37,449 nt of DNA from positions 1 to 37,449 of the forward strand of contig CANIJN010000018.1 of the NCBI GenBank assembly GCA_947467625.1, in the 5' to 3' direction. Origin of the DNA: Opitutia bacterium (GTDB taxonomy: Bacteria; Verrucomicrobiota; Verrucomicrobiia; Opitutales; Opitutaceae). Below are positions 15,249-18,564 of the stretch, in pieces; the stretch's first letter is position 1, and each line of letters opens with the position of its first letter. A program made the position numbers and the translations under genes. The notes beneath the pieces were generated by a model that was not told where the DNA came from, did no database searches, and saw only the letters and a program-made list of their open reading frames with translations.

Positions 15249-17429
15249 CTATAGCAACTCGCCCTGCCCGTCACCCAGCGGCTTTACCCCGATGAATCGC
15301 CCATACCGCTCGAGCCAATCGTCAAGTTTGTCGGCGTAGTACGCCGGGTCGTAGGGTGCAGCGACGGGATCGTAGAGCGACAACGCCCGGGCCCGCTGCC
15401 AGTCACTGGTTTTCCCCTTCGCCTTCGCCGTAATGTAGTAGCTCACGCGCTCGCCCATGCGCGGGCGCGGCGACAGCTGCAACGCGACTTCCGCCGAGGC
15501 CCGCCGTGGTTTACCGCCTCCGGCGATGAGCTGTTCGTAGGCATCGGGATTCTGGTTGAGCGTCTCGCTCTTCGCCAATTCCGCCACGGGCACTTCCCGC
15601 CTTGGGAGCCGGCGGCGATAGTCTGCCACCATCGGTACCGGCGACTCGGGAGCTGCGCCGACCAAAAAATAAATCAGCCGCTCGCTCAGCTTCTTGAGGT
15701 ACGGCTCGATCCCGCGTGATCGCAGCGCGCTGCCGCGCAGAATCACGCTTTCCCCATCGTAGAGAGCGTAGTTCTTCGCCTTGTAGCACCACATCGCCGC
15801 ATACTGCCCGTCATGTTCAAGTTCGATGCCCGCTGGCAAAATCGATGCGACGAGCCCGAGCAATCCTTCCGGCGTAGCAAAATATTTCTCGGACGAGAGG
15901 TAAATTCCATCGGTGTCCGCCTCGAGGATCGTGCAACCGTGCTTCGCGAATTCGTCGATCAGCTGCTGCAACAGCTCGCGTCCGAGCCGCGTAACGTCCG
16001 CCGCGAGTTCGCCGTCGCCAAAGCGTGCGCCTGAAAAACCAAGATAGCCGTAGAACGAATTGATCAGAATTTTGAAGTTAGCCTGCCGCGCCTGCGCCTC
16101 CGAGCGCTCCTCCTCGGTCGCGCCATGTTTCGCGAGCTGCTTATATTTCAGGCGATACTCGCGCAGCCGACGCAAGAGCGGCACGAACACCCCGAGCGTA
16201 TCGTTCTGCGGATTACGCGCGATATGGAGGAGAAGGCTCGGATAGAGCGAGGCCACGTCGAAGTGCAGCACATGCTTAAACACCCCTTCTTGAAAACTGC
16301 GCGTGTAGCCGCCCTCGAACGGCTGCACCTCTGGCGGCACCGGGCACGCCTGGCGCGCGTGGTAATACTCCTCAAGGAACAGTAGATCGATCTTCGACGT
16401 CGCACCGCGTAGCGTCGCCTCCTGTAACATCGTCGGAAACGTCCGCACTTGTTCAAAATACGTCGGCAACAATTGATCCGCCAACCCCTCCGTTTCGCGC
16501 AGGTCATCCCCCAGGTAGGCACAAAATTTCGCCCGATCCGTCGCGAACACTTCCTGAATGTGGTTACCCGCAATGTACGTCCGCTCGGCGCTGTCCTCGT
16601 CGGTGACGCCGAAATAAACCGCCACGTCCTTCAATCCATAAGAGGTAAATTCGCGTGTCGTGATGTCGTAGAGCTGCACGAGCAAATACGTGTCGACGAC
16701 CGCGCGTCCCGGTAGGTCGCAACGCGGGAAATCGATCCAGCGCTCCGCGACTTTCAACCGCGAACTGCGAAACGACGCCTTTTGCCCGTAGCGCCCCCAC
16801 GCACACGGGACGCGATGGAGCCGACAGCGCTGGCGGAGGTAATCCAGGTCGAACTTGAAGATATTATGGCCCTCGATCACGTCCGGATCGATCTCGCGGA
16901 GCGCGGCGGAGAATTCAACCAGCAGCTTTTTTTCCGCCGCGTCCGTCATGTCATCGAGCAGCAGCAACCGATTCTTACCTCCGCAACGCAACCCGACTGC
17001 CAGCACGCGGTCACCCGGTCGCGCCGCATCGGGAAAGCCACCGTCCGACGACGCCGTTTCGATATCGAGCTGACACCGGCGCAGCTCCGCGAAACTGAGA
17101 TCGCGGTACAGGCGTTGCCGGTGTTGCAACAAAAACTGGCTTTCGAGCGGTCGGATCACGTCCAGTCCGATCGCCGTCTGCTTCGCCGCCTTGGTAAAGG
17201 TCTCAAATACTCCGAGACTCTCCGCGTGCACGAGCCGGTTAAACGGCCCCGGTCCCTGCAATTGCTCCAACGTCAGTCCTACGAGATTTACGTCCGGCGG
17301 AGTGTCGTTGAGCCACCCGAAGGGACGAAACGTCTCGCTCCGCTCCTCACGCCCCCCTGCGGCTGCGACCACCGTCGTAAACACGCGGCCGGTATCGTCC
17401 ACCCACACGCCGCAAAGCGAACCAATCAT
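15249..17429 (-). CDS. Family B DNA polymerase (Pol II-like) with 3'-5' exonuclease
   Basis: This 726-residue DNA-dependent DNA polymerase resembles E. coli Pol II (polB) in family and size. Proofreading motifs are present: Exo I LDIETAS (D122, E124), Exo II GHNIFKFDLDYL (D194) and Exo III YLGDD (Y305, D309). Polymerase motifs are present and intact: A DVASLYPS (D391), B KILINSFYGYLGF (K453) and C EADTDGIYL (D505, D507), followed by KAKNYALYDG. All catalytic Asp residues are there, so it should be active in synthesis and proofreading. A role in damage tolerance or repair, as for Pol II, is inference. It starts 16 bases after the small membrane protein gene on the same strand and ends tail to tail with iorB. 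Confidence 0.88.
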   Translation of the reverse strand: MIGSLCGVWVDDTGRVFTTVVAAAGGREERSETFRPFGWLNDTPPDVNLVGLTLEQLQGPGPFNRLVHAESLGVFETFTKAAKQTAIGLDVIRPLESQFLLQHRQRLYRDLSFAELRRCQLDIETASSDGGFPDAARPGDRVLAVGLRCGGKNRLLLLDDMTDAAEKKLLVEFSAALREIDPDVIEGHNIFKFDLDYLRQRCRLHRVPCAWGRYGQKASFRSSRLKVAERWIDFPRCDLPGRAVVDTYLLVQLYDITTREFTSYGLKDVAVYFGVTDEDSAERTYIAGNHIQEVFATDRAKFCAYLGDDLRETEGLADQLLPTYFEQVRTFPTMLQEATLRGATSKIDLLFLEEYYHARQACPVPPEVQPFEGGYTRSFQEGVFKHVLHFDVASLYPSLLLHIARNPQNDTLGVFVPLLRRLREYRLKYKQLAKHGATEEERSEAQARQANFKILINSFYGYLGFSGARFGDGELAADVTRLGRELLQQLIDEFAKHGCTILEADTDGIYLSSEKYFATPEGLLGLVASILPAGIELEHDGQYAAMWCYKAKNYALYDGESVILRGSALRSRGIEPYLKKLSERLIYFLVGAAPESPVPMVADYRRRLPRREVPVAELAKSETLNQNPDAYEQLIAGGGKPRRASAEVALQLSPRPRMGERVSYYITAKAKGKTSDWQRARALSLYDPVAAPYDPAYYADKLDDWLERYGRFIGVKPLGDGQGELL

Positions 17430-17445: not shown

Positions 17446-17784
17446 TCAGAACGGCTTAAGGTAGACCATCAGGACGGCAGTGATCGCGAGCGCCAACGTG
17501 ACCAGCATCAGGGTGTTCGCTTGGGCCCGACGCTTATACGCCATCCCGACAAGCGCCGAAAGCCCGAGCCAGCACACAATTTTCACGATGATCCAACCAG
17601 GAAATCCGACGCGCAGTTTCGTGATGAGCCCGAAACCACCGATGAGCACCAGCAAACTCGCGATCCCCGTGATGATCAACACGCGCTTGCGAGTTTCCGC
17701 CGGGGCGGCGAACGCATAAAACGTGTAACCGAAGAGCACGAGCAGAGAGCTGACGTGGAGGATGTGGTAGACCGTTGGACTCAT
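17446..17784 (-). CDS. Small four-helix membrane protein
   Basis: This is a 112-residue protein with four predicted membrane segments: YHILHVSSLLVLFGYTFYAF, VLIITGIASLLVLIGGFGLI, WIIVKIVCWLGLSALVGMAY and TLMLVTLALAITAVLMVYL. Loops are short and positively charged (ETRKR, YKRRAQ). Size and layout recall SirB-like inner-membrane proteins, but I cannot assign a family or function. The start chosen is ATG 17784 (MSPTVYHILH), because an alternative start at 17814 would lie inside the 6S RNA. It is followed after 16 bases by the polymerase gene and probably shares its transcript. Confidence 0.7.
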   Translation of the reverse strand: MSPTVYHILHVSSLLVLFGYTFYAFAAPAETRKRVLIITGIASLLVLIGGFGLITKLRVGFPGWIIVKIVCWLGLSALVGMAYKRRAQANTLMLVTLALAITAVLMVYLKPF

Positions 17785-17809
17785 GAGTAAGTAAACTGAA
17801 GGAAAGAGT

Positions 17810-17990
17810 GACACCCCACCTGTGCCGTATGCCCAAAGGCTCAGGACCTTTTTAGGTTAAGGTGGGCGCCTCCTCCGCAGCGTCTGCTTTCCGATGAACG
17901 GCCTAGCATCTTCCGCGACGGTTTTGGCTCCCGTAATAATTCTAAGGCAAAGAGCAGTTATTGAAAGCACCTCGAACACTGCAGGGTGTC
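17810..17990 (-). ncRNA. ssrS: 6S RNA
   Basis: 6S RNA mimics an open promoter and binds sigma-70 RNA polymerase holoenzyme in stationary phase. Seen directly: a closing stem GACACCC (5' end, 17990-17984) with GGGTGTC (17816-17810), giving 181 nt, the normal 6S length. The 5' strand starts CCCTGCAGTGTTCG, the CCUGxxGUGUU-type start of many 6S RNAs. The 3' strand holds the small hairpin ACCTT...AAGGT beside the central bubble, then GGCATACGGCAC. The apical arm folds into a long interrupted hairpin (CCGtcGCG with CGCtgCGG, TGCT with AGCA, CCG with CGG). A promoter fits the 5' end exactly. It lies between gcvH and a small membrane protein gene. Identification is by eye from structure and remembered consensus. 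Confidence 0.72.
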
Positions 17991-17997
17991 GGCGGGT

Positions 17998-18025
17998 ACC
18001 GTAGGAAGCGCGTCCTCTTCGTCAA
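17998..18025 (-). promoter_or_regulatory. Promoter of the 6S RNA
   Basis: On the minus strand a -35 box TTGACG (18025-18020) is followed by a 16-base spacer and a -10 box TACGGT (18003-17998). The inferred 6S RNA 5' end at 17990 lies seven bases beyond. The -35 differs from TTGACA in one base; the -10 is weaker. Position and spacing agree with the structure-derived RNA end. Confidence 0.55.
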
Positions 18026-18180
18026 ATGCGAATCACGATTCGTGCCTTTCATCCGAGTCACCCGCGTTTCACTGCTCACTCATGAGCGATCACGGGCAGG
18101 TCGGCGCGCTCGAATACGAAAATGCTGAAAACGCTCCCTCCAAAAACCGGGCACCCCATCCGAGCGAAAACCTGAACCAC

Positions 18181-18564
18181 CTAGCCGAGCAACTGCTCGT
18201 AAGCGGCGGCTGCCAACAAAGTCGTCGCCTCACTGGGGTCACTCAACGTGAGCTTGAGCATCCACCCTCCCTCGTAGGGTGCCGAGTTGAGCGTTTCAGG
18301 CGCTCCGTCGAGCGCGGCGTTGATCGCCATGACCGTGCCCGCAACCGGGGCGTAGAGATCGCTCGCGGCCTTCACTGACTCCACGACACCAAACACCTCA
18401 CCGGCTTTCAGCACCGTGCCGACTTTCGGCAGTTGTACATAGGTAATATCGCCGAGCGAACTTTGCGCGTAGTCGCTGATTCCCACGGTAGCCGTGCCGT
18501 CGGCCTCGACCTTCAGCCATTCATGGGATTTCGCGTAACGGAGGTTCGTGGGGACATTGCTCAT
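18181..18564 (-). CDS. gcvH: Glycine cleavage system H protein
   Basis: This is the lipoyl carrier of the glycine cleavage system, shuttling the aminomethyl group from GcvP to GcvT. The 127-residue length is typical. The start motif HEWLKVEADGTATVGISDYAQ and the lipoylation site GVVESVKAASDLYAPVAG with K65 are both intact, and the C-terminal GGWMLKLTLSDP matches the family. Its ATG overlaps the gcvT stop by four bases (ATGA), so it is translationally coupled to it. The decarboxylase gcvP is not in this window. Confidence 0.96.
   Translation of the reverse strand: MSNVPTNLRYAKSHEWLKVEADGTATVGISDYAQSSLGDITYVQLPKVGTVLKAGEVFGVVESVKAASDLYAPVAGTVMAINAALDGAPETLNSAPYEGGWMLKLTLSDPSEATTLLAAAAYEQLLG

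Follow-up and report, generated by a model that had tools for sequence, protein, structure and literature searches.

The window (the whole 37,449-nt stretch of DNA that was analysed) carries on its minus strand an RNA gene set between gcvH and a gene for a membrane protein (Table 1), the setting that the reading made from the sequence alone (the sequence-only reading) had described and that the Pfam matches of the two neighbours (PF01597 for gcvH and the DUF1516/SirB-like match to PF07457) now bear out. The gene gcvT lies behind gcvH, and a B-family DNA polymerase gene (PF00136, PF03104) occupies positions 15249-17429. The match of the downstream protein to DUF1516 scored 31.5 bits, just over the cut-off of 30.5, and that to SirB 22.3 bits, below its cut-off of 30.9.

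Table 1. Features at and around the RNA gene (positions in the window).
Feature	Position	Strand	Basis
gcvH, upstream neighbour	18181..18564	-	PF01597, 146 bits
Probable -35 element, TTGACG	18020..18025	-	TTGAC kept in the family
Probable -10 element, TACGGT, 7 nt before the RNA	17998..18003	-	TAnnnT kept in the family
6S RNA (ssrS), 182 nt, 5' end at about 17990	17809..17990	-	RF00013 match and covariation in 31 family sequences
Likely pRNA template: part of the 5' bubble strand and adjoining GCUC helix strand	17944..17955	-	Conservation and analogy
3' strand of the central bubble, possible small CCUU/AAGG hairpin (17847-17862)	17843..17863	-	Pairing in alignment A1
T-rich stretch just past the closing stem; may be a terminator or processing tail	17802..17808	-	T counts
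Downstream gene, 112 aa, DUF1516/SirB-like membrane protein, ATG 17784	17446..17784	-	PF07457 match; conserved beside 6S

The covariance-model search that had been proposed as a check was run by scanning the whole window against Rfam, and it returned the 6S RNA family (RF00013) on the minus strand at 17990-17809 with 59.7 bits (gathering score 46.4, E 1.5e-9), over the full model (positions 1-187 of 187) and within one base of the earlier placement at 17810-17990. RF00013 was the sole Rfam family at or above its gathering score in the whole window, and a single 6S match was found in the genome to which the window belongs (5.59 Mb in 362 contigs, 96% complete). We conclude that this segment is almost certainly a 6S RNA gene, found in one copy, of a member of Opitutaceae or a near relative. 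The RNA shares with 6S RNA/SsrS (RF00013) its length, closing stem, central bubble, apical stem and full-length model match, as well as invariant G-C-containing helices flanking the bubble, and differs in its family-specific sequence and in its downstream neighbour, which is DUF1516 and not ygfA. It is a new yet ordinary example of a widespread small RNA. A literature search found no paper pairing 6S RNA with Opitutaceae, and the papers that name both 6S RNA and Verrucomicrobia use the 6S term 1-5 times each and by their titles deal with other subjects; the gene adds a firmly supported 6S RNA to a group without a 6S paper in the literature searched.

Folded as a single sequence, the minus-strand RNA forms a closed rod (-66.7 kcal/mol), as had been claimed, in which part of the bubble is closed. 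The energy of this fold hardly exceeds that of shuffled sequences (z -2.06; equalled or bettered by 6 of 200 shuffles) and the opposite, plus strand folds similarly well (z -2.30; 3 of 200), so folding energy was rejected as evidence for 6S; because it is weak alone, the case beyond chance is carried by the model match and by covariation. For the latter, a MAFFT alignment that was not fitted to any structure (A1) was made from 31 sequences including that of the window (29 distinct), i.e., 31 of the 32 same-family Rfam matches with G030 left out, and a consensus structure was derived from it with RNAalifold. This structure has the closing stem, central bubble and apical stem of a 6S rod, and its pairs are formed in 97.6% of 1274 cells. 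Compensatory changes of the kind sought in relatives were found, with 16 of the 44 pairs changed on both sides compared to a mean of 6.8 in shuffled alignments (none of 500 shuffles reached 16) and to 2-6 pairs when the structure was slid by 1-3 columns, comparisons in which the consensus structure is favoured over its slid versions by having been derived from A1 itself and over the shuffles by the relatedness of the sequences. Beside the bubble, the GCUC/GAGC (4 pairs) and GGG/CCC (3 pairs) helices are invariant in the 29 distinct rows and are therefore uninformative on pairing; they agree with the conserved G-C pairs beside the bubble that a portion of PMC4064990 describes as a 6S feature.

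The two promoter elements upstream of the RNA are separated by 16 nt. In all 32 family loci, the TTGAC element has its end 27-34 nt before the RNA, with a TAnnnT box at the 16-nt spacing in 29 of them (G015, G016, and G027 differ); because the choice of the -10 took the highest-scoring of five spacings and gave extra weight to A at the second and T at the last position, the constant spacing is the informative part of this result. A generic consensus promoter scan of the region listed no promoter-like site (0.4 expected), missing the promoter because TACGGT fits TATAAT at only three of six positions. The -35/-10 pair previously proposed is present and conserved in the family, but it is only half consensus and went unflagged by the scan. 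A sigma70-type promoter of its own probably drives the 6S RNA, with a start near 17990.

Conservation around the gene was followed in ten-base blocks as the mean identity to the window (which counts among its own matches) in seven of nine loci of the genus and 30 of 32 of the family; loci with less than 100 nt upstream or less than 25 nt downstream were skipped. Among the seven genus members, window included, identity was 0.60-0.77 at -100 to -51, 0.97-0.99 at -50 to -31, 0.60-0.83 at -30 to -1, and 0.91-1.00 across the RNA; it was 0.79 in the block at the RNA end and 0.63 in the one after, and climbed to 0.71-0.96 farther downstream, in the region of the next gene. The limits of conservation coincide with the RNA and its promoter elements.

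These data bear on two other explanations of the locus. A non-functional rod that folds by chance in a non-coding spacer would accord with a fold z of only -2.06 and with an opposite strand that folds equally well, but it is contradicted by the E value of 1.5e-9, by the covariation, and by the fall of conservation at both ends of the RNA, and we consider its probability practically nil. An Ms1-like RNA, which would bind core RNA polymerase and not be a true 6S, comes to mind since a portion of PMC9130861 describes Ms1 as structurally related to 6S; the match obtained here, however, is to RF00013, with no other family at threshold in the Rfam library scanned, which may or may not include an Ms1 model, and such an identity appears extremely improbable.

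Within the 6S RNA, two pairings compete for the 3' strand of the central bubble. The pairs of the small 3'-strand hairpin are formed in 95.7% of cells of the alignment, and those of the competing pairing, between CCUU of the 5' strand and AAGG of the 3' strand, in 94.8%. Three of the four alternative CCUU/AAGG pairs hardly vary; the pair adjacent to the hairpin loop (columns 136/146) is changed on both sides in 4 cells and unpaired in 4, compared to 1 and 5 cells, respectively, for its alternative counterpart (columns 49/146). Support from the alignment thus appears almost equal for the hairpin and the two-strand pairing. A small hairpin is likewise possible in the 3' bubble strand of Bacillus subtilis 6S-1 RNA, according to a portion of PMC8876501, whereas here the 3' AAGG is also able to pair with the 5' CCUU, and this pairing differs from the B. 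subtilis collapse helix, which in the same portion uses the 3' strand of helix P2.

How 6S RNA acts is outlined in a portion of PMC8876501: it imitates an open promoter, sequesters the housekeeping polymerase, and comes free once a pRNA is synthesised. We infer expression, polymerase binding, pRNA synthesis, and physiological role of the RNA studied here from its family membership. As a rod with a central bubble resembling an open promoter, it would, as growth slows, occupy the housekeeping RNA polymerase holoenzyme; upon return to growth the polymerase would copy a short pRNA from the 5' bubble strand, by which the 6S RNA would be released. The likely template, GCUCUUUGCCUU, is identical in 22 of the 31 aligned sequences, window included. 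With a start that we take to correspond to the E. coli 6S start site, the predicted pRNA would be AAGGCAAAGAGC, beginning with AAGGCAAAG, or, if synthesis started one base later, AGGCAAAGAGC, beginning with AGGCAAAG.

Past the closing stem, the first 10 nt contain a mean of 6.0 T in 30 family loci versus 2.6 per 10 in the next 30 nt, and 4.9 versus 2.7 in 16 other loci of the order. A terminator scan listed a weak terminator-like site at 17826-17810, overlapping the 3' end of the RNA (two sites found in the region, 1.2 expected), and none between the RNA end and ATG 17784; inverted repeats in 17750-18180 amounted to three short pairs, of which nothing was made. The start of the downstream gene, which the sequence-only reading had moved from 17814 to 17784, is settled by the comparison with relatives. 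The GTG at 17814 lies inside the RNA, and the distances from the RNA end to the matching ATG in relatives (11, 12, 17, 18, 24, 25 nt and so on) fall in all three phases, so that no in-frame extension through the RNA is conserved; the gene starts at ATG 17784.

Among 57 genomes ranging from the genus to the order, our own included, 49 had an RF00013 match in a search with stricter filters, and 48 of these passed the family cut-off. Eight lacked a match in this first search (G009, G017, G019, G032, G035, G042, G052, and G053). The apparent absence was rejected for G009, G017, and G032, three of the five same-family genomes among the eight, where the RNA was found by a family model (R1) built from 31 same-family sequences, while the R1 search found no 6S in G019 (67% complete), G035 (84% complete), and G063. 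With the Rfam and R1 searches together, 6S RNA was found in 35 of 37 same-family genomes.

The DUF1516 gene lies just downstream of 6S on the same strand in 31 of these 35 genomes, a count made up of 28 of the 32 loci with Rfam hits, in which the protein match begins 12-186 nt past the RNA, and three R1-found loci assigned by position. In the other four loci with Rfam hits, the contigs of G006 and G007 end at the RNA and the gene lies early on a different contig whose own start falls within the RNA (L052 and L054, with the gene at the same positions), G010 has the RNA and no match to the gene, and G018 keeps the RNA with the gene on another contig. Further downstream and within the flanks examined, 20 of 32 family loci have a B-family DNA polymerase gene after DUF1516, and the downstream neighbourhood of 6S is common to most close relatives. 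DUF1516 was found beside 6S in none of 17 loci from the other families of the order (tblastn at 1e-4 with the protein encoded in the window, in flanks of up to 3 kb, the flank of G037 ending 2 nt past the RNA and those of G049 and G050 being shorter than 900 nt). Seen from the protein side, a search with DUF1516 gave 54 loci, mostly metagenome-assembled genomes labelled Opitutaceae, Opitutus, Opitutae, or Verrucomicrobia, labels that put the window in Opitutaceae or close to it; one locus (L103, Hyphomicrobiales, a 30-residue match) was not counted among the relatives. Of the remaining 53 loci, 41 had the RNA no more than 600 nt upstream in the same orientation, L094 had it 3.1 kb upstream, and 11 lacked it in the locus, a tally that shares some loci with that from the RNA side and is not independent of it. 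Ten of the 11 genomes whose DUF1516 locus lacks 6S have the RNA elsewhere, and G063 gave no match. The link between 6S and DUF1516 is common, yet broken in places without loss of either gene, and since the pair is separated in some relatives, it may therefore reflect inherited gene order rather than a fixed unit.

Such a steady position upstream of one gene also raises the question of a cis-acting leader of the DUF1516 gene (riboswitch-like or an attenuator) that merely resembles 6S, as the RNA directly precedes that gene, in the same orientation, in 31 of the 35 family genomes where 6S was found and the scan listed no terminator-like site before ATG 17784. We hold this to be very unlikely, given that the 6S model is matched over its full length, that G010 and G018 both keep the RNA with no gene match and with the gene on another contig, respectively, that 10 of 11 relatives whose gene has no nearby 6S carry the RNA elsewhere in the genome, and that the flanks examined around the 17 loci from other families showed no such gene. 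Taking the RNA as 6S, a more tentative reading, which we think possible but rather unlikely, is that 6S and DUF1516 of Opitutaceae form one transcription unit, with a read-through mRNA that would have the whole 6S as its 5' leader. Read-through would pass the closing stem and the T-rich tail. In 7 of 28 family loci, the first in-frame ATG past the RNA is a mere 11-15 nt away, so a ribosome site or promoter has scant space unless it overlaps the RNA. If the two genes did share a unit, expression of the membrane protein would follow the 6S level.

A 6S gene that stays beside a protein gene across a lineage is also known from ssrS-ygfA of gamma-proteobacteria and others (portions of PMC4064990 and PMC9130861), where ssrS is placed in the 5' UTR of ygfA (PMC4064990, same portion). 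Here, in contrast, the partner is DUF1516/SirB-like and not 5-formyltetrahydrofolate cyclo-ligase, and the association is one of gene order; were the genes co-transcribed, they would parallel ssrS-ygfA with an unrelated partner. The literature search found no paper pairing 6S RNA with SirB and, judged by titles, DUF1516 only in Leptospira papers. Surveys of 6S gene context were reportedly made by Barrick 2005 and Wehner 2014, which other papers cite. Our comparison documents DUF1516 as a family-level neighbour of 6S and a candidate for co-transcription with it.

Directly upstream of the 6S -35 element, a palindrome, CGAATCGTGATTCG, is present at 18029-18042. Palindrome and -35 are together highly conserved within the genus (identity of 0.97-0.99 over -50 to -31), and by eye half of the palindrome persists in some other members of the family. 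A search of the own genome with the two joined gave one occurrence, even with three mismatches allowed, and a shorter form of this joined sequence gave two further places at one mismatch. The idea of a site shared by a regulon was dropped, as no regulon was seen in these searches of the own genome with the joined sequence and its shorter form.

On the upstream side, a DUF2017-like gene (PF09438, 28.1 bits, cut-off 25) is present on the same strand as 6S in 23 of 32 family loci, at 55-763 nt from the RNA in 22 of them and at 1716 nt in G031; the observation also takes in L111, L114, and L116, and by eye similar frames are present upstream in G009, G017, and G032. The flanks of the nine remaining family loci, just about 700 nt long in two cases, yielded no such gene. 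Among 17 loci of the order's other families, G049 had a weak DUF2017-like match (33%) 250 nt upstream and G045 one (35%) downstream on the other strand. In the window and its three nearest relatives (G001, G003, and G004), gcvH occupies this place instead of the DUF2017-like gene; a search of the own genome did not find the latter, an empty result that shows little.

Two minor observations concern the surroundings of the RNA in other assemblies. Where 6S is away from DUF1516 in L106, L108, L109, and L113, a response-regulator-like frame is seen by eye close downstream of the RNA. In addition, assemblies break at 6S, with the contigs of G006 and G007 ending at the RNA end and 5 of the 53 protein-side loci beginning inside it (the loci in this observation being L031, L044, L052, L054, L056, L058, and L059). 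Metagenome assemblies thus seem prone to break at the 6S gene, possibly owing to its near identity between strains.
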